A stretch of DNA of 64,000 bases from Tetrahymena thermophila SB210 (Eukaryota > Ciliophora > Oligohymenophorea > Hymenostomatida > Tetrahymenidae): contig NW_002476495.1 of the NCBI RefSeq assembly GCF_000189635.1, forward strand, positions 310,001-374,000, written 5' to 3'. The position numbers and the translations under genes were made by a program. How positions within the stretch are numbered: position 1 is the first letter of the stretch; each line of letters starts with the position of its first letter. Below the pieces are notes generated by a model. The model did not search any database, was not told the DNA's origin, and saw only the letters and a program-made list of their open reading frames with translations. Positions 1 through 47,400 of this stretch are shown here, piece after piece.

Positions 1-3000
1 GTTGGAACTAAAGATTAACCATTTACAACTTCAAATAACTTTTTGACAGCAATGATTAAGGTATCTTGTTAGATTATTTTTAATAGCTTCATTTTTCATA
101 AAATTAATTAATAATTTAAATAATTTAAAAAAAAATTTTTTAATTTTGAAGCTAAAATTTTGCTCACAGAAATTAAATAAAAACATATAATATTTATTTT
201 TATTAAATTAGGCATAATATTACAAATAAATAGTTAGTGGAGTTTCAAATATGTTTGTTGATATCTTAGTAGTTCCAAATAGAATTTTAAATCTAAATTC
301 TAAGCTTATGAATTTCGATTTTAATAGTATAATTTCTTTGAATTTCAAAAGTACACAGATAGGATCATATGCTTCGCTATAATATCAAAATCGCTTAGAA
401 TTTATAAACTACAATTATGTTGGATTCTAAGATATTATAATCTATTTTGGATTAGATGATGAAAATAATAAATGTGGTCTTTATTTTTCTAATATAGAGA
501 ATAATGTGTTAATTAACAATATATAGCTCTACCTCTATTCTGCAACTTCTAAACCTTTAAGCTGTTAGTCTATTTACTCTGACAGTAGTGTATTAAACGT
601 TTAAAACTATCAAATATCTGGAGAAGATTTTACCAACCATGGGTCTGTACTATAGTACTTTAATGTAACTGATGTAAGTTTCATTTACAAATAAAACAAT
701 TTTTTAAAATATTTTAATATTAAATAAATTATTAGATTTTCTTTAACAACTTCTCTTTAACTGGCTGCACACTTGGAAATAGCTTTAGCATATTAACCTA
801 GGAGTCTAATCTAAAAGTTGCTGTATCTAATGTAACTCTAGCAAGCAATGTTTGCCCAACTGATGATAGTGGAACATAAAATAATTAAAAAATATCGGCA
901 CTATTTTCTGCAGGAGGATTTAATGTAAAGAATATGACAGTTAATGATAATATTTTTTGCAAAAAAATAGTTTTTTCTGTTGTTTCTAGTCTAGATTAAG
1001 ATAATTAAGTTTTTTCCTTTTAAGATATACAAATTTATGATAATCTCTTTCAAGCTAGAACTACATACTTGTTTTTCGATGCTTTATATTCAATGATGGC
1101 TAGTCCAAGTCATGAATTAGACTTAAATAATATTTAATTCAAGAATAATTCTCTTACAAAATATAATGATTTTGATTAAATAAGTGCATCATATTTTCAA
1201 ACAAGTAAAATATCAAAAATTTAAGCTCAAAGCATCATGCTAATCAATCACTTTGATATTTCATTTGGATTTTTTTAATATTTAGACAATATTAATGTTA
1301 TTAATTTTAATTGTGTAAACGATGATGACTATTTAGTCAAAATACCTAACCAATAAACATATAGTTGTCTTTAATTGAATGAATTTGCTTCTGCAAATAT
1401 TACTTAAATTAAAATAATTAATAAAAAAGCATAAGACACAAATTTATTATAGATGGAAAATAATAGTATTTAATCTGCTAATTTAATAATTACAAAAGGT
1501 GTGTTTTAAAATTTATAATTATATTAAAATGGAGTAAACACTGAAGCAATACCTATTCAAGTAGCCAGCAACTATTAAATTGAAATAACAATTGATACTT
1601 GTTTATTTTAGAATATCACCTTGAAAAGCATTCAATTTACTTTGACTTACTCTACTTCAGCTCTTTGGATTTAAAACTATGTAGGCAAAGTACTTATAAA
1701 AAATTCATAATTCTATGATTCTTATAGCAATTCCTAGTATGGCTTAATTTTCGTTCAGGCCAATTAATTAACTCTTGATACAGTTTAATTTAGTAATGCT
1801 ACATTTTCTTTAAATTAGCCTTTGCCTTTATTCAATTCATATGGAGCTATGTTGAATGTCAAAGCATAAACTGTCAATATTTTAAAGTCTGGTTTTAATT
1901 AAGCAACAGCCATAAAAGGAGCATTTCTTTACATGATATCATTTGGTTAAATCTTTTAAGTTAGCATTTCTGATACTATTTTTAGTGAAGGTTATGCTGA
2001 AGATGATGGTGGTGCAATTTATATTGATTCAGGAGGTTAATAACTCTAATTTAATTGCTAAAATTGTTAATTTAGTAACATCTATACATAATAAATATCA
2101 GCATCTACTATAGGTTAAGAGTAATTTTATTTTTTTATTTTTTTTTAAATATCAAAAATTGATAAATATTTTAAAAATAATACTTAGGAAATACTCAAAG
2201 ACTAAAACTAATCAGTTAAATAAAATACAATTCTAAGGAGGCTTTATAAAAAATGTATTTGGAGTTACAGACAACTACTTTATTGATATCTCTAATTCTA
2301 ATCTATAGTTTAATCAAATTCCTACTATCATCTCAGAATAGTTTAACTCAAATTCTTTACCATAATAACTCTACTTGACTAAATTTAAAGGGCTTCAATA
2401 ATAAGCTACTTTAGTTAACTTGTTAAAATCGTCTTTATAAATTTAAGGATGTAAATTTTCTAACATTAAAATATAATCCTAAACTTCACTTTTACCACTT
2501 CTCATAAGCTCAACTTTATCAAATATTACTATTACAAACACTTAATTCGAAGATAGCTTATTTAGTGGCAGTGCGATTTATGCTCTTTAAAGTAATGTCT
2601 AATTTGAGAACATTTCATTTAAAAATGTATCATAAGCCTTATTTGGTAGTAGAGTTTTACAATAGAATATTTATTAGAATCCTGACCCTTACGGAGCTTC
2701 CTTAATAATTTCTTATCAATCTACAGTCAGTATAAAATCAAAGAGTTCCTTTACAGACTCAAGCTGCAAGTTTAATTGTAATGGTGGAGCTATTCAACTT
2801 TTTCAAAGTACATTAACTTTAGAAGATACTACATTCTAAAATATTGATGTAAAATAGTTTATTTTTAGTAATACTTTCTTAAATTTTATTTTATAAAAGT
2901 CTTCTTTTGGAGGAGCTCTCTTTGTTTAAGGAATGAATAATTCGAATACTATTACTAACACCAGGTTTATAAACTGCAGATCATAAAATGATGGTGGAGC

Positions 3001-6000
3001 TCTCTATTTAAAAGCTTTGTAAAAAGATGTAAATTTTCTAAATATTTTACACTTAAATATATTTTTAAATGTATGAAATAGAAATTCGGCCTTTCTATCA
3101 CAAATAGTATTTTTGAATCTAATTCATGTAAAACTAGAGGTGGAGCAATTTATATTGACTCAGATGTTATGAATTCTCCATTACAAAGTATATCTATTGC
3201 TGACTCTAAAATAATTTAAAATGTAGCAAGTATTGGAGGTGGTATTTTTTAACAAAATATCTCTGTTAATACTGAAAAAAATAATGTTATTTCAAGTAAC
3301 AAAGGAACTGTCTTTGGAAACGATAATATTTCTTATCCTACAAAATTAAGAATAAGCAATATTGATGAATTCTTATAAGTGAATAATGGAAAAGTAGATA
3401 AAGATTAAATTGTTATTAACAACTTTAGAAGCGGTGCTAACTTGACTAATATTTAATTTTTGTTTTTGAATGATAAAAATGAAATTATTTATCCCATTAC
3501 ATAAGATGAATTCGATACATACAAAATTAGCGTAGCTTTTGATCCTAAAACTGCTAATCTAGTTCAATATTAAATAGATGGAAGCACTTAAGCAAGTTTT
3601 AATCCAAATATTAAATCGTTTAGTTTTGAGAATATAACATTATTAGGAAAACCAGGATCTTCTGTTCAAATATAATTTAGCTCTAAATAAATTTATGGTG
3701 TTGATAGTTAGCAAGCTAACTTTGTGTAAAACTATACTTTTAATATTCTTGTTCATTTCAGGTTGTGTGACTCTGGAGAATAGATAGCCTAACTTGGATA
3801 AGTTACTGAATGTTAAATATGCCCAGCTAACTATTACTCCTTTAATGTAGAGAATTGTTAAGAATGTCCTAAAGGAGCTACTTGTAATGGAGGAACAGAC
3901 ATAGTTACTAATCAAGGTTATTGGCGCAAATCAAATATTAGTGATTTAATAATAAGTTGCTCAAATCTACCTGATAACTGTGATGGAGGAAATTATGGAG
4001 ACGATATTTGCCATGAAGGACATATAGGTGCACTCTGTGAAGAATGCGATGTAAATTCTTAAAATTATTTTCAGTAAATCTAAAAAATATTTATTAATTT
4101 TTTTTAATAATTTAAGATATATGGCTAACATTGGGGAACATCTTATGCAAAATCAGCTAAATATTCATGCACTAGATGTGATTAAATTAAAGGAAATATA
4201 TGGATTGTTGTTTTGATGACTGTGTGGACTTTAATATCTATGTGCCTTGCAATTAAGGGTGATGTGGAAATCTTAAAGGAGCGAGTAGCTATTCTTACAA
4301 TTTAAAAAAGTTTAAAAAGAAAATAAATGATTAAAAGTTAATCAAGAAGATAAACTTCAGTGCATTAAGTAAATTAACAGTCTTTTAATACAATAACTAA
4401 CCAAAAAACAACTACTAGAAGTTCTATCTATGAAGTTAAAGAAAAACCATAAAAAGTGTAAATAATAAGGACTGATGAAGAAAAATCAGGAATTTATATT
4501 AAGATGTTAACAAATTACGTATAAATTGTTGGATCTATAGCTACTTTTAATCTCAGCATTCCTTCAGGTAAATATTTCCACTGTTTTTTTTTTCTTTCTT
4601 TCTTTGTATATTTTTTCATTTATATATTTTTAATTTATTTTATATGTTAATCAAAAGGTATTTTTGAGTTCCCTTAATCAGTAGGCTAACCACTTAAATA
4701 AACTATGAATTCTTTAGATTGTGCCTTATAAGAGATGAATTCCTCTATGCCAATAATTTATATGAGACTTTTATTTTCTATTTTAATACCATTTTTATAC
4801 ATGGCTTTATTTTTAATTTGTATGGGTCTGTATTACTTACTTAAGAAAATAAAAGCTAAAAAGAATAACAATGAGAATTAATTCCCTTGGTATATTTTGG
4901 CTACAGCTATCATGTTTTTAATTATTTATGTCTAGCCAGATTTAGTTGCTTAAATCATTGCTTTATTGTCATGTAGATAAATTGGTGACACATAATATAT
5001 TTTGTCTAATGTTTCCTTTGTGTGCTATGATAAAGAACATTATTTTTATGCCCTTGTCATGGTGATTCCTATGTTATTAGTTTGGGTTTTAATTTTACCT
5101 GGTATTCTTTTTATGTCCTTAAGAAAAAATAAAAATCGTTTAGAGGAAATTGATATTAAGCTTAAATATGGCTTCCTATACAAAGAATATGAAAACTATG
5201 CATTTTATTGGGAATTTGTGAAAATGACTGAGAAATTAGCTATTATTCTTGCATTAAACTTTTATTCACAGAGCATAAACATAAAAGCTATATTAGTCTT
5301 TGTAGTTATTACTGTTTATGGTATACTATCAATTATAATCAAACCTTATTAAGAATCTGATGTAAACGAAATTGATGTTAATTCTACTCATGTTTGTGCT
5401 TTAACAGTTTTACTTGGTCTATTTATGTATAAAAATCAATATGTATACTTTGTTTATAGTTCTTTAGGTCTAATTGTTATGATCAATCTTTGGTTTATTG
5501 TTAAAATTCTAAATAAAATTATTGGAGGCTATATGCCAAAAATTAAAGATATCTTGCAGCAGCTAGTGCAAATTCTCTCTTCTAAAATATCATACTTTAA
5601 GAGGTTTGTAAAATAGGAAGAAAATGCTAAGAAAAAAATGGATCCTGAAATCAAGAAAAAGTTCTTATTCTTGTTTTAAAAATTTTAAAATTTGAATAGC
5701 GAGTAAAAGAAAAAGATAGTGATGGAAGTGTATGAGTAAAGACTAGGTAAAATTAAATTATTAATTAAGAAAAGTTAAATTTAATGTATTTTATAATTAT
5801 TTAGTTAAGTAATATGCCTACCTTTTTGATAAAAATGAAGAAAATGAAGAATAAAAAGGAAAAGATGAAGAAAATTTCAATTAATTAAAGTCATCATCCC
5901 AATTCTGTGGTACATTAAAATTCATAACCTAATAAGAAGAAGACAAGAATATCGAAAGCGGAAAATAAAATAGCAATCAAGAAATATTAAATAATATAAG

Positions 6001-6231: not shown

Positions 6232-6525
6232 AAACTAAACTAAAATCTTATTAATATCATTATTATGTTATATTAAATTATTTACATTATTTATTCATGT
6301 TTTCAAAATTATTTTTCTAAATATTTACAAAAAAACTTGATAATTAATTAAAAAACATTTTATTTTTTAAGTTCAATTCATAAATTTATAAAGCAATTAA
6401 TTAATTACATCAAATTAGTCAATTAAAAAATTAGGTTTTCTTTCTAATTTTTATTTTTTGCAAATTTTTATTATTCTAAATTTTTTGATATTCAGATAAA
6501 TTACCCAATCTTTATTTAAAATAAA
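6232..6525. other. Intergenic gap between gene 1 and the relic
   Basis: AT-rich sequence after the TGA of gene 1, with no family similarity and no RNA gene visible. It is presumably the 3' untranslated region of gene 1 plus spacer. Confidence 0.6.
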
Positions 6526-8399: not shown

Positions 8400-9067
8400 T
8401 GTTTATTATATATATATTATTTCTGAAATTAGTTAATACCATTCAAATTATATTTTAGCAAATATCAAAAAATATATATTTTAAGTTAAACAGATTATTG
8501 AAATCTATTTTTAAAAACAAAATCTTCAATCAATATTGAGAAAAAAAAATTTGATATAAAATTATGTTTATATAATTAAAATAATAATTATAGCTACTTT
8601 AAAATTTTATTTTGATAATCCATCTTTTTTTAAATTAATTTGCATTTAAATTTTTTAAGGAATAAGTAATTAGAAATATTTAATTTTAATGTGTTAAGAG
8701 TTCTTGAAAGAAAATAATTGACTAAAAAAATTTATTTTCTAAAATAAAAACCTGATAATATTTTTTGTAAAATAAAAAATTAACTTAATAATTAATTAAA
8801 ACTATTTTTTTTTTAATTTCATTTTCATTACTTTCATGGCATAATAAATAAATATTCTATTTACTCTAAAATTCATAATTTATGTATCTATACTTTTTTT
8901 TCAGTAAATATTTTAATTTATATAAATACCATTAATATGTAAATCATTTAATTTGATGTTGTAGAAAAAAAGAATTGAAAGAACTCAATTATAAAGAAGA
9001 AAGATATCATTAATTGTAAGTGTGAAATTAATAATAAGATTAACTCTAATAAATTAATTAAAAGGTA
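8400..9067. other. Intergenic gap upstream of gene 2
   Basis: 668 nt of AT-rich sequence with homopolymer runs. I see no coding similarity, tRNA or repeat. It should hold the promoter of gene 2, but no motif stands out. Confidence 0.6.
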
Positions 9068-12000: not shown

Positions 12001-15000
12001 AAAATTTTAAATAAATTATACAAGTTTTTAACTCCCTATTTTATCTTTTAATATAAAACTTATAAATTAAATTAAAAGGCTTAATACTATTAATAAATGA
12101 TAAATGGAGTATCTAATATGGGAGTAGATATTTTAATACAACCTGGATCAATATTAGATTTGAACAGCAATTTTATGAACTTTGATTTTAATTCAATAAT
12201 TTCTTTGAATTTTAAAAGTACCATTTAAGGGAATCCAGCTAGTTTGCTAAATGTAAATACTTTAGTCCTTCAAAACTATAATTAAATAGGATTTTAAGAT
12301 ATTATAATTTATTTTGGATAAAGTAGTCCACAAAATTAATGTGGTATATCTGTTTAAAACATTAAATAAGGTGTAACTTTTGATAATATTTAATTGTATC
12401 TATAATTCTAAGTTTCTGATATAAAAAGTTGCTAAGTAATTTAAGCAGATTCAACTTAAATTAGTATTTTAAAATATGAAATTTAAAACGAAGATTTCAC
12501 AAATCACTAATCTATTATTAGCTCTTTTAATGCCACTTAGGTAATGTTAACTTATTTTAGTTATTTATATTTATAAAATTTTAAAAACAAATAGATAATA
12601 ATATAAAATATGACTATAGCTAATAGTAAGCTTGGGTTAAATTTTAGCGTCTTGAAATAATTATCAAACTTGAATGCATACATAAGCAATCTTGAAATAT
12701 CTGGAAACACATGCTCTTAAGATTCATCAGATGATCAAAGTATATCTTAGTTATTCTAAGCTGGGTATTTTGTAGTGAAAAATGTAAACATAACAAATAA
12801 TATATTTTGCAAAAAAGTTATTTTTTAAGTAGAAAGTTTTCAAAATTAAGAATTTAAAAGTTTTTCTCTTCAAAATATTGACATGAAAAATAATAAATTC
12901 TAGGCTAGGACATAATATATCTTTTTTAGTGCTATTTATTCAATGATAGTTGTTCCATATCATGAATTAAATCTGTATAACATAAACTTTTACAACAACA
13001 CGCTATTTAAGCTAAATTTAAATGACCTAAGTTCTTCATAGTATTTTTAAACAAATAAAATAGGTTCTATATAAATTGAATAAACAACTATTTAGAATCA
13101 CTTTGATATATAATTAGCTTTGATTGAGTTTGTAAATAGTGTTTATATAAATAACTTTTAGTGTTTTAATGATTAATTATATCTATCATAGATTCCTAAT
13201 TAATTAGCGATAGGATGCTTAGAAATGAATGAAGTCTAGAACATCACCTTTTTTAATTTATAAACTATAAATAAAAAAGTTTAAGATTCTAGTATAATTG
13301 TAATAAAAAATAAATTTACTCAATCAGCTAAATTTAACATGACTAAAGGTAATTTTACAAATGTTTTTCTTAGTTAAACTGGTGTTAACACTGAATCGAC
13401 TCCAATTTATATAGTTAGCGATTATTAAATAGAAATTACCTTAGATTCTTGTGTGTTCCAAAATATCTTTTTAAACAGTGTACCTTTCACGATTACTATT
13501 TCATCAACTGCTTTATTTGTTTAAAATTATGTTGGATCAGTTTTAATTAAAAATACTCAATTTTATAACTCTTATAGCAATTCGAATTATGGTTTTATAT
13601 TCATATAAGCAAACACTTTTATCCTTGATACAGTATAATTTAATAATTCTACATTTCCTATAGATAAATCCTTGTCAATGTTCAATTCAGAAGGAGGAAT
13701 GATTAATGTAAAAGCTTAAGTAGTCAATATTTCTAATTGTAACTTTAGTAAATCAACTTCTTCATATGGAGCCTTTATATACTTTGAATCATTTAGTTAA
13801 GTATTAAATATAAATATAATAAGCACTAGCTTTAGTGAAGGATATGCCTTAAATGATGGAAGTGCTTTTTTCATAGATACTTTCGGTTAATAGCTTAATT
13901 TTAACTGCTAAAATTGTGAATTTAATAATTTATATACATTCTAAAGTTAAGCATCGACTATTGGAATAGAGTAAGAATAAATTTGTTTTTAATTAATTAA
14001 TTTGATTTAAAAACTATTTCAAATAGGAAGTACATCAAGACAAAAAGCAAAAACCAAAGTATCGTATCATTTTATGGAGGATAAATTGTAAATACTTATG
14101 GCGATATAGATAATTACTTTTTGGATGTAATAAATTATAATATCTAATTTAGTGGGAAATAAAGAATTCTATCAGAAGATTTCTCCTCTACTTCGCTAGC
14201 ACATTTATTTTTCAAAGCTTAAAATAATAATAATTATTAATATGCTACTTTATTAAATATAAAAGATTCAAATTTATCTATGCAAGATTGTTATTTTTAA
14301 AACATTTACATAACATCTAGTTTATCAAATTTCCCACTATTATTAAGTTCTACTAATTCAAGTGTTTAGATCTAAAATACACAAATCTTTGACTCAAGTT
14401 TTGTAACTAGTGCTTTATCTTTGATTTAAAGTAATGTATTACTCAGCTAAGTCACTTTTACAAATGTCAATTAAGAAATTTCAAATAGAAGAATTATTTA
14501 ATAAGCAGAAAGCTAAATTTCTTTTATAAATACTAATTAAACAATATTATAAAAGAGAGTTATGGAAGAGTAAATCAATCCAAGCTTATATAGTCATTCT
14601 TTAATTATATCTTACCAATCTAGATTAAATATTAACTAAAATAGTAATTTTACTTCAATAAATTGTAATACAAACTGTAATGGCGGAGCTATTTAAGCTG
14701 TACAAAGCACTCTAAATATTCAAAACACCTTATTTAAATAAATAAAGGTAATTTTATTTTCCTATTATAATAATAGTTTTTACTTAAATTTAAATCACTA
14801 TAATAGTCTACTTTTGGAGGTGCTGTGTTTATTTATGGAATTAATAACACCAATATTATCTAAAATACTTAATTCTAATATTGTTAAGCCCAAAATGATG
14901 GAGGAGGAATTTATTTATTTGCTTTGTAAAATGACGTAAATATTTTTTATTCAATTCTTATTTATTATGTTTAAAGTTAACATTTTTTTTATAACTTACA

Positions 15001-18000
15001 AGAAATTTAAATTAAATATTTCTGAAAGTCTACTTGAAAATAATTCATGTGGTTAAAGAGGAGGCGGAATTTTTATTTATTCAGAAACCCTAAACTCTCC
15101 AAATCAGTAAATAAAATTATAAAACTCATAAATTATTCGTAACAAAGCATCTGTAGGAGGTGGCATATTTTTATAAAATCTTTCTGCAGATGTTTAATAA
15201 CAAAATATAATATCGAGCAATACTGCTACAACGTATGGAAGTGATTAATCTTCATATCCTACAAAGCTTAGAATTAGTAATATTAATTAATTTTTGCAGG
15301 AAAATAATGGGAAAGTGAACAAAGAATAATTAGAGGTTCATAATTTTAGAAGCGGTGCAAATTTAACAAGTATAGAATTTTAATTTCTAAATTAAAAAAA
15401 TGAAATTATTATACCTATTACTCCAGAAGAGGAAGAATAATTTTAGATAAATGTTTAATTTGATATCAAAAGCCAAAACCTTTAATCGTATATTGCAAGT
15501 GGTTAAACATTCACTAAATATGATCCAAAATTATAGAGCTTTGCTTTTAATTATATTAATCTAGTAGGATTACCTGGTACTACTGCTTTTTTATAATTCT
15601 CTTCTCCATAAATCTATAGCGTTGATCCTTAAAGTGGATAGTTTATCTAAAATTATTCCTTTAATATCTTGATTAATTTCAGAAATTGTGGACCTGGAGA
15701 GTAAATTAATAAAGTAGGATAAGTCAAAGAATGCTAGATATGTCCTGAGAATTTTTATTCATTTAATGTAGAAAACTGCAAAGCCTGTCCTGATGGGGCT
15801 GAATGTCATGGTAGTACAAATTTAATTACTAAATTAGGATATTGGAGGAGATCAAATGATAGTGATATCATTTTAAAATGCTCTAATTTACTTAAAAATT
15901 GTAATGGAGGTAGTTATGGAGATAACATTTGCTATGAGGGTCATATAGGAGCCCTTTGTGAAGAATGCGATGTATAATTTTTTTAGTAATTTTTATTTAA
16001 TAAACAACATTTTTTACTAGATTTATGGAGAATATTGGTCACAAACTTATTCCAAATCTTCTAAATTCTCTTGTACTAGATGTGACTAAATTTAAGGAAA
16101 TATATGGATAGTTAGTTTAATGACAATTTGGACTTTAATTTCTATGGTTTTAGCAATAAAAGGTAATATAGAAATTCTATAAGAAAAAGCAGCTGCTTTG
16201 GTATTACAAAAAAATCTAAGAGGAAGAAAAAAGCTATATTAGAATTTGTAGCGAAATGACAAAAATAAATCTACCAATATTTATTTATCATCCACTTTAA
16301 AGAACAAGAATTAAATGCAGTATTAATCATAACCTACTTCAGATTAAGAGAAATCTGGAGTCTTTATAAAAATGTTAACAAACTACATATAAATTGTTGG
16401 ATCAATCGCAACATTTAATTTATCAATTCCATCAGGTAAATTTTTAATCATTAAAAAATATTTATAATAATAAATGTTAAATTAATTAGGAATTTTTGAA
16501 TTCCCATAATCTGTGGGTTAGCCTTTGAAATAAACCATGAATTCTCTAGACTGTGCTTTAGAAGGATTCAGTACTCAGATACCTATAATTTATATGAGAT
16601 TGCTATTTTCTCTGCTCATACCAATAATTTACATGTTTTTATTTCTATTTTGCATGGCTATTTACCACTTTTTGAAAAAGTTAATGACTATTTGCTAAAA
16701 AAAAGAAATCAAAAACTATTATTTTCCTTGGTATATTATGACTACAGCAATAATTTTCTTAATTATTTATGTATAGCCTGACTTGGTTGCATAAATTATT
16801 GCATTATTATCATGTAGATAAATAGGAGATACTAAATATATCTTATCTAATGTTTCGTTCGTATGCTACACAGAATAACACTTTTACTATGCTTTTGTAT
16901 TGTTACTTCCATTACTGCTTATGTGGGTTGTTATTTTACCTTTAATTTTGTTTTTAGCATTGAAAAGAAATAAAAAGAATTTAGAATCAATCTAAATAAA
17001 ATTAAAGTATGGATTTCTTTACAAAGAATATTAAAACTATGCATATTACTGGGAATTTGTTAAAATGGCAGTGAAATTAGTAATTATACTGGCCTTAAAT
17101 TTTTACTCATAAAGCATTGTTACTAAAGGTGTGCTAGTCTTCATAGTGATTACTGCTTATGGTATTCTCTCTCTCATAATACATCCGTACTAAGAGTCAG
17201 ACATAAATGAAATAGATGTTAATTCGACTAATGTTTGTGCTTTAACAGTTTTACTAGGAATATTTATTTATAACAATCCTTTTGACTACTTTGTTTACTC
17301 TTCATTTGCTATAATAGCCATTGTTAATTTATGGTTTATTTTTAAAATTTTAGGCAAAATTATCAAAGGCTACTTACCTATAATTAAATAAAGCATTTAA
17401 GAAATCTTCATTATATTATCTAAAAAAATACCATGCATAAAAAAATTTATAAAGCAAAATAATTAGAAAAAAGTAAATCCTGTGATTAAAAATAAATTCT
17501 AATAACTTTTAAAAAAATATTTATCTCTTCCTTCAAATGAAAAAAAAAGAATTTTGTTGAGTACAATTTAATTTTAATTAGGTAAATTTCTTTTTATTGA
17601 TTACTAAATATATTTAATCTTTTTTGACTATAGAAAATTAATTCGGACACTATCTAAGATCAAGTGAAGAATTCTAGCTGCTAGAATAATATTAAGGAAA
17701 TAAGATTCAAAGATATTCTGAAAAATAAATGAGAAGTTAAAATGAAGAAGATTTCATAAATAATTAAAATGATGATTAAAACAATTAAAAATATATTCCT
17801 ACAATTCAATTAGATACGCTACAAAATTTCAATAATTTTAACACAGAAACTGCTATTTAATATGGTAAAAATTACATTTTTACAAACTATTTTTGAATTT
17901 TAAAAAAATAAAATCAAAATATTTAGAAACAAAAGATGTTGGAACAAGTAGACTAAGATAGCAATAATCCAATTAGTAGCTTATTTAATTTCATTCAAGC

Positions 18001-22300: not shown

Positions 22301-25300
22301 AGACTATCTTAAATGTAAATTTTCTTTATTTAGTATTTTTAATTTTTCATATTCATTCAATTTTTTAATTAAAAGGCATAATTTTACAAAAGTATAATAA
22401 AAGCTGTCAATAATATTTAAGTATTTATTCAAATTAATCCTAATAATTCATTTTATTTAATATCTTAACTCACAAATTTTAGCTTTAAGTCCTTAATCTC
22501 ATTAACTATATCAAGTGTTTCTGATTAATAACTAGCAACAATTGTATATTCAAACTCTCTTATCTTTGAAGATTACAATTCAGTAAACTTACTAAATATT
22601 CAAATAATGTTTTTAGATACTGATAAAAATACATGTGGGTTAGAGTTTTCTAATATTAAAAATGTAGTCCAAATAAATAACATTTAGCTAAGAGCCTACA
22701 AAAATCCTTTAATTTCTTGTTAAAGTATTGAAATAAGCAATACTTATGTTTAAGTACAAAATTATACAATAACTTCAGAAAACTTTGCAAATAATTATTT
22801 CATTTTTTCTACACTAAATACGAATTAAGTAAAATTAATTTTATTTTAATCATTATTAATTATACATCTTTTTTATTAGATTAGTATTGCTAATTTTTCA
22901 TTATTAAATTGCTAATTCGGAGATTAGTTTAGTATTTTATAACAGAACACTGATGTTTAAGCGATTATCTAAAATATTGTTTTGGAAAATAACTATTGTT
23001 CACAAGCTAATTCTATTTTTTAGAACCCTACTGCTTTGTTTAGTGCTGGTCATTACACAGTTTCATCTGTTTTTATATAAAATAATACTTTTTGCAATAA
23101 AAATATTTTTTAAGCAATAACCTCTATCAAGCACTTAAGTCAAACCTTTTCTTTTTTAAATATTTCTTTAATAAACAATAAATTTCTTACAAGGACTACC
23201 TATCTTTTATTTAATTCCTTTTACTCTATTCTATCAGATCCATCTCATTAATTGATACTTAAAAATTCCAGTTTTTATAATAATTCTCTTTTCACTTAAT
23301 CGTAAAGAGATTTAAAAGGAGCTTCGCTTATTCAGACAAATAAAATCTAAAATATTTCAATAGAAAATGTTAATTTTTTAGATCACTTTGATATTTAACT
23401 AGGAGCTTTTGATGAGTCATAATTAATAAGTGTTAATAATTTTAATTGTACTAATAACCAGTTCTTTTTAAATTAACTTAATAATTAATAAACATAAGGA
23501 TGCTTATAAATAAATGAAGCTGCTATTGTTCTATTTGATACAGTTTAAGTTAACTATAAAAAAGCATAAGATAATTCATTGTTTTTAATAAGCAATTATA
23601 ATTATAAATAATCATAAGTTAATATATCAAACGCATAATTTACAAACTTAATTTTAAATTAAACTTAAATGAATACATTTGTAAACCCACTTTAGATTAT
23701 TGGTAGTTATTAAATAAATTTAGACATTTAAAATAGTTATTTTGTTAACAATTCTTTAATAAGCTTATAATATTCATTAACTTACTCAACTACAGGTTTG
23801 TGGTTTGAAAATTTTGTAGGTTAATCAATCATATTTAATGGTACATTTGAAAATAATTACAGTAACTCTATCTATAATAATATTCATATTTAAACTGATA
23901 GTTTAATTATATAATAATGCAAATTTTAGAATTCAACTTTCTCAGAAATAAACTTATATGATAACTAGTATAACAAATTATTTACTTAATTGGGAGGAAT
24001 GATCAACGCGATTATTAACTCTGTCATAATAACTAATACTTAATTCAAATAATCAACAGCAATAATGGGTTCTTTTCTTTACTTTTAGTCATTTGGATAG
24101 AATCTTAATATACTTATCAATTCTACAAAATTTACAGAGGGATATAGCTAAATTGATGGAGGAGCAATGTACTTAAATCCAATAAATAATTTACTAAATT
24201 TTTCATGTATTGATTGCGAATTTAGAAATATTTTTTCTTTAAGCTAATTGTCTTCTTCAATAAAAATATTGTAACTTATTTACTTAAATATTTAAAAATT
24301 TTTTTAATAAATTATTTACATTATTGATATAGGTAGTAAAATTAGAAAAATGGTACAAATAATATTACATTCAATGGTGGAATCATATAAACAATATAAG
24401 GTATTTTAGATAATTACTTTATTTAAGCAGCTAATAGCTAAATTTAAATGATTGATATAAGTTAAGTAACATATTAACAATTTTAGTCAAGCGAACTACC
24501 TTTCCTTATTTACTAAGCAAAATAGAATTAATAATAGTCTACTATTATTTATTCTTCATTTTCAGTCCTTTATATTAATAACTGTAATATCAGTAATTTA
24601 AGTATTACCAATTAATAATCATCGATTCCATTAATTATTTAATCTGAAAACTCAACAATAACAATATCTTCAACATATATATCTAATTGTGAATATACAA
24701 AAAATATGGTTCAGTTAAATGGAGGAAAGCTTATTCTAGATAATATTTTATTTTAAAAAATTTAATAATATCAACAAACATAAATGCTATCAAATGATTT
24801 ATAATTAATACCAAACTTAAACTAATATTCTATTTTAGTTGCTTCTGGTGCTTTTATTTAAATCTAAAATAATTCTAGTTTTTCTATGTTAAGTTGCACT
24901 AGTTGTAATGGTGGTTTACTTTAAATGTTAAATGGCAATATCAAAATCTCAAACTCCTCATTTTATTAAATAACAGTAATTATTTATTATTAACTTTTAT
25001 TCATTTTTAAAAATATTTAATAAAGAGCTAATATGGTGGAGCATTTTTCATTACTGGATTATTTGGAACAAATTAAATTATAAATTCTAAATTTTAAAAT
25101 TGTTAATCTTAGTATAATGGAGGAGTTGCTTACATATAATTTAATGATGAAAATGTAAAATTATTAAGAGTTATTATACAAACCTAATTATTTATTTTTT
25201 AATTATTTAAACAGTAACTTAGCTTAAATATTGATTCAGCATAATTTTTCAATAACACTTCATTAAATGGTAGAGGAGGAGCAATATATGCTATTTCTTA

Positions 25301-28221
25301 GAATATAAATCCCCAGTTTATAAATTTTAATATTAATAACTCCAATTTTATAAATAATATAGCTTAAATTGGAGCAGCGATATATGAATAAAATATATCT
25401 TTGTAAGTAAATAGCTCAATATTTAAAAATAATTTTGCTAAAATATTTGGCAGTGACAAAATTTCTTACGCAAGTAAGCTAGACCTTGCTAATATTGAAT
25501 AATTAATTTCTAAATATAATGCAAAATAATATGATGATCATTTAGAAATTAATGATTTTAGGAGTGGAGATGTAATAAATAACATAAGCTTTAAGATGAT
25601 GAATTCTGATAATGAAGTTATATTTCCAATAAATAAGCAAGAATATTAGACTTACAGTGTTTAAGTAAAAATAAATCCAAACACATAAAACAAAGACAGC
25701 TATGAAATAAGCGGAGACTAATAAGCTTATTATAATATTTCATCATAAACCTTTACTTTTTCTTAATTAAATATTGTTGGTACTCCTGGATCATCTTTTA
25801 AAATTCAATTCTTTAGCGATTAAATATTTATTTTAAATGAATTGACAAACTAATTTGAATAAAATTATACATTTGATTTTGTAATAAATTTTAGAAAATG
25901 CATATCAGGAGAATAAATAAAAGAATATAATAGTCTGGTACAGTGCGATATTTGCTAAAACAATACTTATTCTTTTGATGTTTAACCTTGCCAAAATTGC
26001 CCAACAGGAGGTATATGTTTAGGTGGAGATAAGATAGAAGTTTAGTATGGGTATTGGAGAAAATCAGAAGATAGTGTAATTATAATAGATTGCGAAAATT
26101 AAGAATCGAATTGTGTTGGTGGGTCTTTTGGGAATTCTGTATGCTATTAAGGCCATATAGGTGCACTATGTGAAGAATGTGATGTAATCATTTTAGATTA
26201 TTTTTAAATCAATTTGTATGAAAATTTTTTATTTATTTGAAATTTATTAAAAGATTTATGGTAAAATTTGGTAAAAAGTATTCGCAAAATCAGCTAAGTA
26301 TTCTTGTGCAGAATGTGAAAAGATGCAAAATAATACATGGATTATTTTAGGTTTAACTTCTTGGACATTATTTTCTATGATGATTGCAATTAGAGGCAAT
26401 ATCAACTATTTAAAAATAGAAGCTATTTAAAATAATATAATGAAGAATACAATTAAGAAAATGTAAAATAGAAAAAAAAGTGAAATTGAAAACTCATAAA
26501 GATTGAAATCAATATCTTTTTCAAAAGGATTACATACTTTTTTTAAAAATAGACCCAAATCAAAAAGTCAAAATAGGAGATTAAACCTTACTAATTTGAA
26601 TGACTAAATGAAATAAAGTATTTATATTAAAATGTTTACTAATTACTTTTAGATTGTTAGTTCTATTGCTACTTTTAATTTAACGATTCCATCAGGTAAA
26701 TTATAAAAATTTTTATTAATTTGATCACTAATTATTTTAATGTATAAAGGTATATTTGAGTTTCCATAATCTGTAGGATAACCTATCAAGTAAACTATGA
26801 GCTCAGTAGACTGTATGCTTGTTAAAATTAATACTGAGATTCCGATTATTTACTATAGAATGATTTTTTCTTAGATCATACCTATTATTTATTTACTTAT
26901 TTTCTGCTTAGGTTTATTCATTTATCATATAGTTAAGAGCAAAAATGAAAAATTCCCATATTATGTACTTTCAACAGCTTCTATATTTTTAATTATTTAT
27001 GTTTAGCCTGATTTAGTAGCTTAAATAATTGCATTATTGTCATGCCGAAGAATAGGAGATACAAGTTACATTCTCTCTAATGTATCCTATGAATGTTATA
27101 CAGACTAGCATATTAAATATATCCTTTTAGTAATTTTACCTCTAATGTTAATTTGGATTTTCTTGCTTCCTTTTGTTTTATTCATTTCAATTAAAAGGAA
27201 TTAAAATTAGTTATCTAATCCTAATATAAAGCTTAAATATGGATTTCTTTACAACGAATATTAAGATCATGCATACTATTGGGAATTTATTAAGATGGCA
27301 GAAAAACTTGCTATAATATTATCATTAAACTTTTATTCATAATAGATAGTCATAAAAGGCATACTAGTATTTTTAGCAATATCATTGTATGGGATTTCTT
27401 CAATGATTATTAAACCGTACAAAGAAGAAGATATAAACTAAGTTGATATAAACTCAACGAATGTCTGTGCTATAACAGTTTTATTTGGAATTTTTATTTA
27501 TCAAAATCCATTCCCTTATTTTTACTACACTGCTTTAGGAATAATTATTTTAATAAACTCTATCTTTATTTTTAATATGCTGAAATAAATTATTAATAAC
27601 TACTATCAATTGTTGAAATAATCCTTTAAAAACATATTAAGCTTTCTTGCTAGCAAAATTCATATTTTGAAAAAATATGAACAAAAAACCAATCCAAAAT
27701 AGAATACTTGTAATCCTGAAATAAAAGCTAAAGTTTAAATGGCATTTTAAAGATACTTATAAATGAATTAAAACGAGAAAAAGCAGTTTTTTTTAAATCT
27801 ACTAGAATAAAGATTAAGTAAAGTTTTCTATATTGAATTACTATTTATTTTTTTCATCTTTAATAAAGTGCTATGTCATAAAGATATTTTTGTTGATAAA
27901 AGCTAAGCTAAAATTTAAACTCCTTACTAAATTCCTGAATTAAGAAAATAAGATTAAGAATCTGAAAAAAATTCTTTTATACTTGAGCAAGATGTAGATT
28001 AAGCTTTGAATAGTGTGAAAACAAACAACTTTTAAACTTTAGAATGTAAATAATTTTAATTTTTTTAATTTTAAATATGTTATTAAATAAAAGAACACTT
28101 CGCAAAAGTTACACCAAATTAATAGAACAGAAATATTTTTTAGAATAATGAGGTACCCAACTCTCCTTGTCTTAGTATTTTTGAAATAGATGGTTTTTCA
28201 ATATAAAAAGTTAATTAATGA
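19312..28221 (+). CDS. Gene 3: giant propeller / beta-helix / multi-pass membrane protein
   Basis: ATG 19312 is preferred because the frame is open and places a hydrophobic signal (MLFILMMKLQLILA) before QCP; ATG 19324 in the same frame is the alternative. Exon 1 ends at 19435 in phase 1, as in its paralogs. The propeller half runs to about 22320 (GGIIAWSIN, GSVYSWDL) and closes with the linker CTQCSQNYYFN. The beta-helix half starts at 22376 (exons 22376-22828, 22880 onward, 25026-25154, 25215-26183), with GGAFFI, GGVAYI and RGGAIYA repeats. The Cys-rich stalk ends GHIGALCEECD. Membrane exons begin at 26254 and 26750 and include KYGFLYNEYQDHAYYWEF. The tail ends at TGA 28219-28221. All conserved blocks are intact with no frameshift, so this is the best single example of a complete member in the window. 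Confidence 0.88.
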
Positions 28222-32600: not shown

Positions 32601-35600
32601 TATTTTTTATTTTTTTACATTTTTTGTTTTTTTTATATCTCTTTAAAAACTTTTATATTTATCTATTAAAATACTTAAAATAAATATTCTATTTATTAAA
32701 AATCATACTTTTTAAATTAAATAGGCAAAATATTATTAAGTTATTTAACCTCTTTTAACACAAATTTCATTAGAAATCGATATTACAGCAGCAACAATAC
32801 CAACTAACTACTTTAACTTCGATATGAGTTCTATCACATCTTTAAAATTCTAAAGTTCATCCAGTTAAACAAGTGTTATATCATACTAAAGTTAAATAGT
32901 ATTTAATTAATATTAGAGTATATAAATCTCTAACACCGAATTTAATTTTTTAATAACTTAATAATACCCTAATTGTGGTTTAGTATTTTAAAATACGTAG
33001 AGTATATCATTAAACTCAATTTAAATAGCGACTGACACAAACTCAGTATCAAAAAATTAAAATTGTTATAATATAATTGCAAATAACACAGCTGCTTCTC
33101 CTTTACCTTTTACGATTAAAACAATGAGTATTCAAAACTTAGATTTTACTAATAACAACCAAATTATTTTATCAAATGGATATTAAGTAATCAATTTCAT
33201 ATTTTAAAATTATAATTCAACTTTTTTTTATTAAATTTTAGATTTCTATGGACAGTTTGACTTTATCAGGATGTACATTAGGAGATAACTTTTCTATTAT
33301 AACACAAACATAAGGTTCTTCTATTTCTCTAACTAATTCAATTATTTAAAATAATAAATGTGCTTTAAATTGGTCTTCAGGAATAATAACTTCAGCCTTG
33401 TTCTAGGGAAGCAAAATTACTGTGAATTCTTTACAAATATTAGGCAATACTTTTTGTAACAAATTAATTTTTTAGAGTTTGTAAGTTGTTGATACTAATG
33501 TTAAAGTAGGAGATTTAAATACAATAACAATTACTAATAATTAATTTGCAAATATTTAACCTACTGTTTTTTATTACACATTTTAATAGCAACCGATTAA
33601 CGCCATTTAGTTAAATGGATTAAATTTTTAAAAAAATACTATTCAATAAATTTCTAAATTACAGTAAGCAACATATATCTCTTTATTTAATGTTGATACT
33701 GTGACTGCAACTTAAGTTGATATTAACAATGAATATTCATTTTAATTTGCAAATGTGACTTCAATAAATTCTCTTTCTTTTACAACTATTAATTTTGTAA
33801 ATGATGTAACATTTCAACCTACAATACCTTAATCTAATAATATTCCATCGTGCTTCTAATTATATGAAGTTTCAAATGCTAATATAAATTAGATCTAAGT
33901 TTCGTACAAAAATTCTCTCGATTAGCCATTAATATTAATTAAAAACACTTAAACTTAAAATTCATAAATATCTTTTAAAGCAGGTCAATTTTAAAATCTT
34001 AATCTTAACCAACCTTCATTTAATACTAATGCAAGCCCAATTCAAGTAACATCAGTGCTTTATCTGAATTTAATATTTGATAATATTGTATTTTCAAATA
34101 ATAATTTATATATTAACTCTTTTCCATCAGTCTATTCAGCATCTGCTCTATGGATAGAAAACTAATTAGGTAATAATACAATATAAAATTCTAAATTTCT
34201 AAACACGTATAGTAATTCTCATTACAACTTTATCAACTGTTTTGGAAATAATGTAACTATAAATGCCTCCTCCTTTTAGAATTCATCATTTGTAGCTTAA
34301 CCTAAAGGAAACTTATTTCTTTAAAAAGGTGGAATGATTCATATTAAGACTTCTAACTTGAATATATAATAATCAAACTTTACATAGGCAACAGCTTTTA
34401 AAGGTTCCTTCATGTATTTAAAATCTGTAGGAAATCCAACTAATGTAAATATATAATCCACTAATTTTACTGAAGGTTATGCGTTTTTAGATGGTGGTGC
34501 TTTTTATATTGATAATGTCGGAGTCTAACTCATCTTTTCTTGCAATAATTGCATATTTAAAAATATCTTTACACTATATATGGGTGCCGCAATTATAGGT
34601 TTTGAGTAAAATTATTATTATTATTTTATAAAAACTATCAAAATGATTTAAATAAAATTTTTTAAAAAATTTAAAACATTAAACTAGTACATAAAATCAA
34701 AAAAGATATTAATTATTTTATCTTTTAAATTTTTGATTTTATTTAATTATTAGATTAAAGCACATATTAATATTTATTTTTTTATCTTTATTTATAGGTA
34801 GCAAGGAAACATTTAAATAACAAATTTAAATTAAATAACATTTGATGGTGGATCTATTTTAAACATGTATGGAGTCTAAGATAATTCTTTTATTGAAACA
34901 TATTATGCCAACATTCAGCTATAAAACATAAAAAGTATAGGATTAGATAGTGTTGCTCCAAGTAGTTCAGCAGCTTATACTCTTTATTAATCAATGCAAA
35001 TGTAATAAACTTCTCTTCTAAATATTCTAAACGGAGTGGCTACTATTAAAAATTGTGGAATTTCTAACTTCACAATTAAAAGTTCAGATTCAACTTACTC
35101 CTTATTTGTGACTGCAGTAAACTCTTAAATAACATTAGATACAGTTGTTATATAAAATAGTGTATTTTATTAAAACGCTTTCTAAATATCTAAGGGATCT
35201 ACTTTAAATTTGATAAACACTTAAATTATAAATGTTAAGCAGTATGTTTCAGGCTCTAGATTTATTTAATCATTAGTACCTACCTATACTCCAAGCCAAC
35301 AATCTTTCTCTCTAATTGAAGTAGATGGTTCAACTCTTAATATAAGCAACAATAGTTTAATATCTTAAATAATATGTACTTCTAATTGTAATGGAATTAT
35401 TTAAATAACTAATAGTTCAATGAATGCTGATTCTTCCACTATCAGTCTTTCATAAGTAAATTAAATTCTTTTAAAGTAATCAAAAATTAATTAATAACTA
35501 TTTTTTTTTCTTTTAATTTAGTCTAATTTTGGTGGTGCAATCTTTGTGAAAAGCTTTACAGGTAATAACTAATGGAATTCTTTGATTTTAGACTAAAACT

Positions 35601-38069
35601 CAGCTTCTTATGATGGTGGCGCACTTTATTTTAGCGCTTTAACTAGTGATGTAATTCTTTTTAAATTCATAATTAAATATTAAATATAATTTTTTTAGAA
35701 ATTTAAGCTTACTTTAAACTAGTGTACGATCTCAAATAATGTATCAAAAAATGGCAGAGGTGGTGGTATGTATATTACATCTTAAATATCTAATTCACTA
35801 GTTTAGTCAATAGTTATAAATGACTCTAAAATCTTAAAAAATAATGCTAAAGTAGGAGGTGGAATATTATATAACAATATTTCTCCTAAAATAAAAGGAA
35901 CTACAGTTTTCCAAGGAAATAAAGCCTTTTATTTTGGAAGTGATTCATTCTCATATCCTAGCCATCTTTATCTTTAAAATTACACTTAAACAAATAATTA
36001 AGTTATTATTGATTAATTTAGGAGTGGTGGAGCATTAAATAATTTAACATTTGAATTTTAAAATGATAAGAATGAAAAAATTTTACCTGTAAGTCTTTTA
36101 GACATTTAAAGTTATAGTATTTACGTCTAAATAGACCCAAACAACCCAAATTTTTCAAAATATACTATAAGAGGTGATGATACAATATTTTACAGCTTAA
36201 AAACTCAGTCTTTTACATTTAACTAACTTCTATTTGTAGGAACACCAGGAACATCAGCAAATATATAATTCAAATCTGATCAAATTTAAATTCTTGATAA
36301 AGATACAAATACTTTTAGTAATAATTATACCTTTAATATCTTAATCAACTTTAGGGCATGCGAAAGCGGAGAAGAAATTAAAGATTACAATGAATTAGTA
36401 GAATGTGCAGTTTGTCCAAAAGGATCATATTCTTTTCATATTGAACCTTGTGCTAGCTGTCCTGAAGGGGCTACATGCTAAGGAGGAAACAATGTTACTG
36501 TAAATGAAGGCTACTGGAGAAAAAAATTTGATAGTGTTCTTGTAGAGAGTTGCTATAATTTGCCTGCTAATTGTCCTGGAGGTACTTATGGAAATAACAT
36601 TTGTTTCGAAGGTCATATTGGAGCTCTTTGTGAAGAATGTGATGTAAATCTATCTTTTTTCCTCAAATTATTTATTTATCTCAAAAAAAATTATTTTCTT
36701 TTATTTTAAATTCTATAAGCCAAATTTAATTTTAACTAATATAAATTATTATTTTTCCTCCAAAAAATCCCTCTTCATAAAATTTTAATTTTTATTTAAT
36801 AATAAACCTTCTATCTTTTAGCAAGTAGACTAATTTAAGCTTTTTAATATTTAAATTTACATAATATTTAGTAATTTAAATAATGATTAATTAAAATAAT
36901 TTTTAAAATCTTATCTATCATTTCAAGTCCTTATAATAAGTAAGTAATTTTTATGAGCAAGATGTTTTCCTGCATTTATTGTTCAGTTTTTATAAATCAG
37001 CTATTATAGTGGCTTAAATGCTTTCCATTTGCAAGAGCATAATATTAAATAGTTCTTAGATATATTTCACTCAATGATTTTTGTCAATAGCCTCTATTAT
37101 CAACTTATATAAAAACAGATTTTTCAGAAGAATTGTCTCTTTAAATCATATCAACAATATATCAGTTTGAAAAGAGTTTCCTTTCTTTCTTATAATTTTA
37201 TCTAAAGTGATTTCATTTATTTTTATTATTTCACCATTTTTTCAAAATTAAAGGCTTTTAATGTAGCTTTTTAATGCTATATAATAAAATTTTAAATATA
37301 TTCTTACATTACTGTAATTATATGCCTTTAAATATTTAATTAGACTTAATTATTCCCTATTCAGAGATTTCTTTAAGAAATGCATCATTTTATTTTATTA
37401 AATCCAATTTGCTAATTTTTTTTGGCTCTAAATTATCATCTTGAAAATTAAATTTATACCAAAATATTTAAAAAATAATGTTTAGATTTTTTAAGAAAAA
37501 TTTAATTTAATCACAGTAGGAAATTCAGTTTTTCAAATTGTATAAATTGAAATTTTTTATTTTATTTTTAATTATATCTTGATATGGATGATTAACAAAG
37601 AAAGAAGCTTTTTGTCAATGTATTTGAGAGAAACATAAGTAATTATTTATTTTCATTTTTTTATTTAAATTCTTAAAATATTAAAAAAATAAATAGATGA
37701 TAGATATCATGGAAACCCTAAGTCTAAGTAAAACACAAAAAATAACCTTATTTCTCAACAATTATCTGATTCAGCAAAAAGTTCTGATTCAAAAATTCAT
37801 ATTGAAGAAAATGAAGATTATATAGTTCCTAATGAGAAGGACCAATAAGGCATTTAAATTAAACATTAAGATACAAAAAATTTAACAAGTAAAATACTTC
37901 TAATTTTATTATAAAAACATTCATTACATTTTAAATTACAGGTGTTTAAAATTTGCTTCTAAGACATCAAACTGAATCAACTCCTGCGAATTATAATCCT
38001 TCACCATTATAAAATTTTTATCCTAAAATCGAAGATTAAGATTCATTAAAATAAATAAATCTAAATTGA
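29660..38069 (+). CDS. Gene 4: giant propeller / beta-helix protein with degraded membrane block
   Basis: ATG 29660 gives a basic N-terminus and the signal LVFISILLQIALA, then QCP. Exon 1 (29660-29795) ends in phase 1 and exon 2 starts at 29849. The propeller half ends with the linker SNCQNCSF and YGGANNSYQ near 32395. The beta-helix half starts at 32725 and keeps the 129-nt exon 35522-35650 (FGGAIFV, DGGALYF) and exon 35699-36643, whose Cys-rich stalk is complete (CPEGATCQGG, GYWR, GHIGALCEECD). Beyond 36643 no intact membrane helices are found, only weak remnants. A tail related to its paralogs (QQRKKLFVNVFERN) reappears near 37590 and remains open to TGA 38067-38069. If the intron after 36643 is retained, translation stops at TGA 36884-36886 after 80 extra, rather hydrophobic residues. 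The product may be secreted, anchored differently, or non-functional. Confidence 0.75.
36644..37590 (+). pseudogene. Decayed membrane block of gene 4
   Basis: This interval should encode the IYG exon and the seven to eight helices. Only scattered likeness remains, in shifting frames with TGA stops between. VAQMLSICKS near 37010 resembles VAQIIALLSC. LFKSYQQY near 37140 resembles FLYKEYQNY. NFFWLQIIILKIKFIPK near 37410 resembles the last helix and its IxxGYMPK end. The order of these fragments matches the family. I infer loss of function of this module after the extracellular exons; extreme divergence is the alternative. Confidence 0.6.
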
Positions 38070-44400: not shown

Positions 44401-47400
44401 TTGGATCACTTCATTTTACTTATTTTTATTTTATTTTTTTCATAAGTGTATCCAAGGAGGAGCAATCTATATTCAAAGCCCTACATAAATAAATAAAATA
44501 GATAATTGCCTTTTTTATAATAATACTTCTAATTAAAACGGAGGGGCTTTAGTCATTCTTTCATAAATAGGAAATGTAAAATAAAATTAAATCTTTAATT
44601 ATTTATTAAACAATTTTTATAAAAAGACATATAATATCTATATACAAAGCACATAATTCATAGAGAATACATCTTTAAATGGATACGGAGGTGCTCTATA
44701 CATTTATTCTGAATCTTTAAATGATTCAAATTAATCTATTTTTCTTTAGTCTACATAAATAACTTAAAATAAAGCTTAATAGGGAGGAGCTCTTTATTCT
44801 TTTAATATTTATCCTCAAATTGATCCACAAACAAATATTCAAAATAATCAAGCAACAAAATGTGGATAAGATACTTTTTCTTTTCCAACTAAACTTTACC
44901 TTGTAAATCAAGAATAATTTTTATCTTAACAATAAAATTCTGAGTTAATAAACAACAAAATAGTAATTAATAATTTTAAAAGTGGTTCGGGTTTATAAGA
45001 ACTTAGATTCTAGATGTATAACGAATAAAACGAATTATTTATACCTTAAAATAATATTGATCCTTATTATGTAGAGGCAAAAGTTAGTAATAAAACGATC
45101 AATGCTTCCAATTTTTATATTAGAGGTGAAGTCTAGTAGAAATATGTAATTAATTAAGTACCAGAATAAAGCATCATTAAATTTGATTCTTTATAAATAA
45201 TTGGAATACCAGGTTCTTTAGGAATCATAGAATTCTACTCAAATTAAATATTTTAACTTGACCCTTCTACAAACAAATTTATTTAAAACTAAACATATGA
45301 AATAATAATTTTTTTTAGAAATTGTACTGCTGGTGAATATATTAGTTAGTATAATAACTACTAGGAATGTGTAAATTGCCCATAAGGAACTTATTCAATA
45401 AACCCTAAAGTGTGCTTAAATTGTCCTGATGGAGCATATTGTTAAGAAGGTAAAGGCATAATTTGCAAAGAAGGATTTTGGAGATCTGGAGAATATGATG
45501 ATTATATAGTGAAATGCAAGTAATCTGCTCAGAATTGTGTAGGTGGTAGCTATGGAAATAAAATTTGTAAAAAAGGTAGTATAGGTGCTCTATGCTAAGA
45601 ATGTGATGTAAATTTATAAATTAAATATTTTTAAATTTATCTTATTTAATTTGAGTTTATTTTATTAATTCCATGAAAATTTAATTTAAGAAAACTAATT
45701 AATTTAAAAAAAAAAATTTTTAATTTAAAATTTTCTAAAAGCATAATTTTTAAAAAAATTTATTTTGCCTAAAGTTTAATTATCAAAATTAATATTTTTA
45801 AAAAATTTCTTTCTTGAATTTTAAATATTTCAGATAATATATAAAATTGATAATCATTTTTCTATCTATAATTTTTTTAATTAGATTTATGGTTCCTACT
45901 GGGAAAATGAATAATACACTAAAGCAAATAACTAAAAAGATTGTGTACATTGTTCTTAGGCAAATGATTATATCTATAAGCTTATATTAATTAACTTATG
46001 GTCTTTAGTTTCTCTAGTATATACAGTTAAAAAAAATGAGGAAAACTCTTTAATGAGGAGAACTTCTACTATTTTATCAAAGTATTTTACAAAGGAAAGA
46101 AAAAAATATAAAACTGATACGAAAGAAATACCATAACCATCTTAGAGGATGAATCCTATGATTTCAAATAAAACTGGAATATATATTAAGATATTTATGA
46201 ATTATATTTTTATTATAAGCTCTCTAGGATAGCTTAACTTAGATCTACCAAACAGTACATATATATTATTTTATTTATCAAACGAATAATATTAAAATTC
46301 TAAATAATTAATAAACAGCTTTTATTGTATTTCCAAGTTTATTTGGTAGGCCTATAAGTACATAAGTTAGTTCTCTTGAGTGCTTTTTAGTAGAGAGCAA
46401 TAGATAAATCCCTATAATTTATCTGAAATTGTTGTTTTCTCTTGGCTTACCTTTCTTACATTTTATTTTATTTGCTTTATATTTAATTTTTGAAAAAATT
46501 ATATTTAGATCAAAATAATTTTCATGGCATAAACTAACAACTTCTATAGTGTTTATTGTATTTTACACTTAACCTGACTTAATATCTTAGATGATTTCAC
46601 TTTCTTCTTGTGTATAGATTGGAGATAACAAGTATATTCTGGCTAATTTTTCTTATTAGTGCTATGCAGATGAAGAATATTATAAATATACTTATTACCT
46701 AGTTTTTCCTTGCTTGATAATATGGATTGTAGTATTTCCAGTTGCTTTATTTTTAATTTTATTTTTAAATAAAAAAAGATTATAAAAATTAAATTTAGAA
46801 CTTAAGTATGGGTTTATCTATAAAGAATATAAAATTAATGCTTATTTCTGGGAGTTTGTAAAAATGTTTATCAAAATAATAATCATACTCTGTTTGAATT
46901 TTTATTCATAGAGCACATAAGTAAAAGGAAATCTAATTTTAGTATCAATTATTTTTTATGGTTATTTGCTCAAAACTATTAAACCTTATAAAGAAGAAGA
47001 AGTAAATCATATTGACTTTTTGTCTACTTTATCATGCTCTGTCTCAATCTATTTAGGACTTTTCATTAGCGAAATTTAGAACGATTTTATTTACTACTAA
47101 TATTTAGGATATATACTAATAGGAATTATTAATACAGCCTTCTTCAGTTTAGTTTTTTGGAAAATTTTTGAACAAAAATTTTTAATAGTTTAAAAAAAAA
47201 TCTTAAAAATAATTAAAAATATATTTAAAAAATCAGAATAGAAAGATAAAATATAAAAATAAATCAATAATTTTCCTAAATAAAGATTTAAAAAATATTT
47301 TTAAACATTTTTGGAGAGTAATGCTGAAATAAGAAAAAGCAGATTAGCATCTATCAAAGACTAAATTTAATCAAAATTTTTGGAAGATAAAAATTAATCT

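Follow-up and report, generated by a model that had tools for sequence, protein, structure and literature searches.

Polymorphic membrane proteins (Pmp) of chlamydiae and trichomonads carry repeats of the Pfam family Chlam_PMP (PF02415), and trichomonad proteins that combine Pmp-type repeats with membrane anchors are described in PMC6701047. In Tetrahymena, leucine-rich repeat (LRR) genes are reported to contain exons that measure exactly 90 bp and follow phase-2 introns; these exons lie in arrays and run to tens of thousands (PMC6564038). MRC2, of the mating-type recognition complex of Tetrahymena thermophila, is described as having eight membrane helices and a pectin-lyase-fold domain (PMC10901506). 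Introns are also reported to occupy shared positions in ciliate orthologs (5022 introns, Tetrahymena versus Ichthyophthirius; PMC5014332). These systems are compared here with a gene family of T. thermophila SB210, seven tandem copies of which lie wholly or partly in a stretch of 64,000 nucleotides (nt) of contig NW_002476495.1 (positions 310,001 to 374,000 of the forward strand; hereafter the window). Each gene has a short coding block, named exon X, between an upstream exon (U1) and a downstream exon (D1), and the length of exon X is nearly constant. This near-constancy very probably results from inherited splice points together with a beta-helix fold that resists insertions and deletions (indels), exon X being an ordinary exon.

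Exon X in the Tandem Genes

The genes are read in ciliate code 6, in which TAA and TAG encode Gln and TGA is stop, and their coding frames are rich in TAA and TAG. They are adjacent and on one strand, and all features given below lie on the forward strand. Exon X occupies 2900..3028 in gene 1 (43 codons), 14807..14935 in gene 2, 25026..25154 in gene 3, 35522..35650 in gene 4, 44447..44575 in gene 5, and 54138..54266 in gene 6. As a first-pass annotation of the window had proposed, each of these is 129 nt long, with predicted phase-0 borders; each is in frame and flanked by GT...AG introns. The same annotation rightly placed Gly-Gly-Ala or a close variant at codons 4-6 and again, 28 codons further on, at codons 32-34; the variants are GGG in gene 2 and GGV in gene 3. 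It also described the six sequences as widely different; their mean pairwise protein identity is 36%. In gene 1, U1 (2188..2848) is followed by a 51-nt GT-AG intron (2849..2899), which the gene-finder reads through unless X is imposed, and a 53-nt GT-AG intron (3029..3081) separates X from D1.

Gene 7, for which the same spacing had been claimed, departs from this pattern. Its exon X runs from 63913 to 64044 (132 nt, 44 codons), with its Gly-Gly motifs 29 codons apart; the window holds the first 88 nt (63913..64000), and the last 44 nt lie beyond it. The end of this exon was placed by eye, from the donor site and the similarity of the following stretch to gene 10, and the 51-nt intron after it is read through by the gene-finder. 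The local observation was thus correct but over-generalized, since the first copy to differ is the one cut off by the end of the window.

Exon X across the Family

The genome (101 Mb, 445 contigs) was searched with D1 of gene 2, giving at least 124 matches, of which 58 are near full length, that is, start at or before query position 14 and reach position 323. Exon X was read in 50 of the 58, comprising 10 members in or around the window and 40 at other loci. Automatic gene-finding merged or split genes and ran through some introns. On the same contig, beyond the window, exon X measures 132 nt in each of three neighbors, g0 upstream and g9 and g10 downstream. Among all 50 members it is 129 nt in 25, 132 nt in 23, 126 nt in one (L039), and 135 nt in one (L027). 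The claim of invariant length in every paralog therefore does not survive; paralogs with other lengths, named beforehand as the refuting test, make up half of the members surveyed. In the 26-member alignment described below, the extra codon of most 132-nt forms sits in the loop that separates the two Gly-Gly motifs, and that of L022 and L025 lies after the second motif.

In L037, L038, and L048 the upstream border of X is present and the downstream intron is absent, making X a segment of a longer exon; these three were entered among the 23 members with 132 nt on the basis of alignment. Their protein runs on unbroken where the intron is absent, which has the appearance of precise intron loss or of an intron-free ancestral state. 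In L019 the next exon follows only after a gap of about 720 nt. L043 (contig C372) and L044 (contig C420) have the same exon X sequence and flanking introns of equal length, suggesting very recent copying or a duplication in the assembly; possibly one gene on two contigs, they both stand in the counts.

Intron lengths were tallied in 40 members on each side, after g0, L012, L016, L019, L031, L033, L036, L037, L038, and L048 were left out. The upstream intron measures 47-66 nt in 34 of the 40 and the downstream intron 48-69 nt in 38. A short exon between introns this short could owe its length to constraint at the RNA level, through splicing or exon definition, and not to the protein. The observed lengths of 126, 129, 132, and 135 nt are, however, always whole codons, and the three members without a downstream intron still keep 44 codons, which makes constraint of this kind highly improbable. 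Recent gene conversion could likewise have homogenized genes that are adjacent and on one strand; against this stand the low identity of exon X among genes 1-6 and the recurrence of the same lengths in members on other contigs, and homogenization retains scarcely any probability. Both explanations were rejected.

Tetrahymena introns whose length is a multiple of three are reported to be under-represented (PMC5014332). In genes 4 and 5 (regions 34799-36643 and 43778-45607), both introns flanking X are multiples of three and free of TGA, leaving the frame open, and the upstream intron is divisible by three in 23 of the 40 tallied members, a count inflated by near-copies.

Length Constancy in Context

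The constancy of exon X was compared with that of its surroundings in 26 members aligned with MAFFT over the last 120 residues of U1, exon X, and D1; g0, L012, and L016 were dropped for a bad upstream exon, and L019 was also left out of alignments and trees. The background consisted of 444 overlapping 43-codon windows, here called segments, and the counts include the segment of exon X itself unless given as strict. Exon X has the modal length in 18 of the 26 members, and 202 of the 444 segments do equally well or better; as few distinct lengths are found in 307 segments and as small a standard deviation of length in 150. Among genes 1-6 alone, 151 segments have one length in all six genes, and in 31 of these the identity does not exceed that of exon X. 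Exon X thus sits in a calmer part of the region, yet its constancy is not exceptional. The earlier description of exon X, with length kept and sequence drifting, is accurate, but this part of the protein behaves that way in general, and the length does vary.

The lengths cluster by descent, with near-copies contributing. On a 29-member D1 tree, exon X length requires 4 changes, compared with 8.1 when lengths are shuffled, and none of 200 shuffles was as low. The 132-nt form alone needs 3 changes and therefore does not form a single clade. Among the 26 aligned members, 3 changes suffice for exon X; strictly fewer are needed by 208 of the 444 segments, and as few or fewer by 263. D1, measured to a conserved CD motif and not to a splice site, has 323 codons in 16 of 29 members and needs 10 changes over a stretch 7.5 times longer than exon X.

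Position of Exon X in a Predicted Beta-Helix

Pieces of genes 1 and 6 were scanned for Chlam_PMP. Spliced exon X plus the start of D1 from gene 6 scored 29.3 bits against a gathering score of 20.6, and single-exon pieces fell below the cut-off (gene 1 X, 15.5; gene 1 D1, 15.8; gene 6 D1, 18.6 bits). By eye, an FxxN motif precedes GGA[I/L/V] in exon X of genes 5 (FYNN) and 6 (FKNN), but not of gene 1 (FINC). A structure model of gene 5, in which exon X forms residues 130-172, is beta-rich and matches solved pectate-lyase-type structures, and so is assigned to the right-handed parallel beta-helix (pectin-lyase-like fold). It was predicted from a 6-row alignment (A3); an earlier 15-row alignment was dropped because MAFFT aligned the rows of the 43-residue exon to a different Gly-Gly turn. 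At the level of sequence, a D1 profile gave no matches to PDB sequences at E 0.1.

In most of 29 members, the Gly-Gly motifs around exon X stand 25, 28-29, 31-32, and 32 residues apart. The 43 residues of exon X therefore amount to about 1.4 turns, with introns that interrupt turns. The proposal that the exon encodes a fixed piece of a beta-helix is thus supported as to its location within a beta-helix, by Pfam, the model, and the structure matches, but exon X is not a discrete piece of it.

The same spacings bear on whether exon X is a structural or shuffling module, that is, a symmetric 0-0 exon encoding a fixed helix unit whose exact length was kept through block duplication or exchange. 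Phase 0 at both borders would suit a module, and exact-length exon arrays are on record in the genus (the 90-bp LRR exons; PMC6564038). Yet 43 residues are no whole number of 25-32-residue turns, and if X were skipped, 41 residues would separate Gly-Gly motifs in gene 1. Furthermore, no second 129-nt exon appears in the models of genes 1-6, half of the members have another length, and three lack the downstream intron. A module is accordingly very unlikely, and this explanation was also rejected.

Origin of the Near-Constant Length

In the proposed explanation, exon X belongs to the stretch of a right-handed parallel beta-helix that lies near the membrane, within a large and partly tandem family whose proteins combine this helix with a Cys-rich part and several hydrophobic stretches that probably span the membrane. 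The common ancestor probably had phase-0 introns, one of them three codons before a Gly-Gly motif and a second, present in most members, some ten codons past the following motif. Tandem and dispersed duplication would then have spread the family, the paralogs inheriting the intron positions. Since every turn of the helix has to stack on those beside it, indels would rarely be kept in exon X, which drifts in sequence and shifts in length by about one codon. Its two main lengths, 129 and 132 nt, cluster on the family tree, the latter having arisen in more than one place. This account is anchored in the exon lengths, the predicted intron positions, the clustering of length on the tree, and the predicted fold; fold constraint would be the likely cause of the low indel rate.

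Several points weigh against this explanation. The exon X counts cover 50 of 124 matches, all 50 from the 58 that are near full length and none from the 66 weaker ones, 124 being a lower bound, and the splice sites of exon X are predictions from sequence. In genes 1, 5, and 7 the gene-finder ran through introns beside X that keep the frame open, in gene 5 the second of the two, and exon X was read by hand in L012, L016, L033, L036, L037, L038, and L048, also in L019, and likewise in gene 7 and gene 0. The structure model is based on six rows, two of them covering exon X, with introns read through. A coding stretch of the model (residues 42-58) also has a predicted local distance difference test score (pLDDT) below 50, and low confidence alone is therefore no mark of an intron. 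By spread, exon X falls within the more uniform third of segments, and far-upstream segments need up to 11 changes on the tree. The ends of exon X are exact splice points, whereas segment ends depend on the alignment, and the segments overlap and all derive from one MAFFT alignment. Clustering on the tree is partly due to near-copies, with 10 of 26 inner branches well supported.

Little hangs on exon X itself. Shared splice points and an insertion-resistant fold can mimic an invariant exon when only neighboring genes are compared. Of more weight is the family as such, with at least 58 near-full-length D1 relatives in one ciliate genome. Literature searches for Tetrahymena with 'polymorphic membrane protein' or 'Pmp' and 'beta-helix' found no paper on such a family in the collection searched, and among the papers listed by wider searches none was, by title, plainly on it except the MRC2 lead.

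Remainder of the Protein

D1 contains the last Gly-Gly motifs and then a Cys-rich end in gene 1 (3082..4050, 323 codons). It also has 323 codons in gene 2 (15003..15971) and gene 3 (25215..26183), 315 in gene 4 (35699..36643), 327 in gene 5 (44627..45607), and 328 in gene 6 (54323..55306). The C-terminal exons of gene 1 (4117-4567 and 4658-5746) encode six hydrophobic stretches. This part resembles the TRP-type channel family PF06011 at E 3e-4, its 20.2 bits lying under the cut-off of 28.5. A Pfam scan of the N-terminal 650 residues of gene 6 returned no families. Just 3′ of gene 1, at 6435-8400, lies a second, partial copy of its C-terminal part, with 73-74% DNA identity over 300-nt blocks and gene models without the ectodomain; it is a short gene or a decaying fragment.

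The family proteins may be located at the cell surface and have a role there. A more specific reading makes them diversifying surface receptors, with a beta-helix ectodomain, a Cys-rich stalk, and a TRP-like membrane part, in which near-rigid membrane-near turns (25, 28-29, 31-32, and 32 residues) would let a signal travel from a variable tip into the membrane part. Such a function is unlikely as it stands; if true, it might suit cell-cell recognition like that of MRC2.

Comparison with Known Systems

The likeness to MRC2 is one of layout, compared by description alone (PMC10901506), and serves as a lead for function only. Like the LRR exon arrays of Tetrahymena, exon X is a constant-length exon coding for a repeat protein in an expanded gene family. 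The arrays differ in that exon X measures 126-135 nt, has phase-0 borders, occurs once per gene as modeled, and is not a repeat unit. With Pmp proteins the family shares repeated GGA[I/L/V] motifs and, in the trichomonad case as described in PMC6701047, membrane anchoring. In contrast to them, the Tetrahymena proteins continue into a Cys-rich part and hydrophobic stretches, have FxxN only sometimes, and are encoded by intron-rich genes. Chlamydial Pmps also possess a C-terminal autotransporter domain, whereas none was found when the gene 1 C-terminal part was scanned against Pfam (E 0.1), and the six hydrophobic stretches stand in its place. The family is thus one with Pmp-type repeats, not one of chlamydial-type Pmp proteins.
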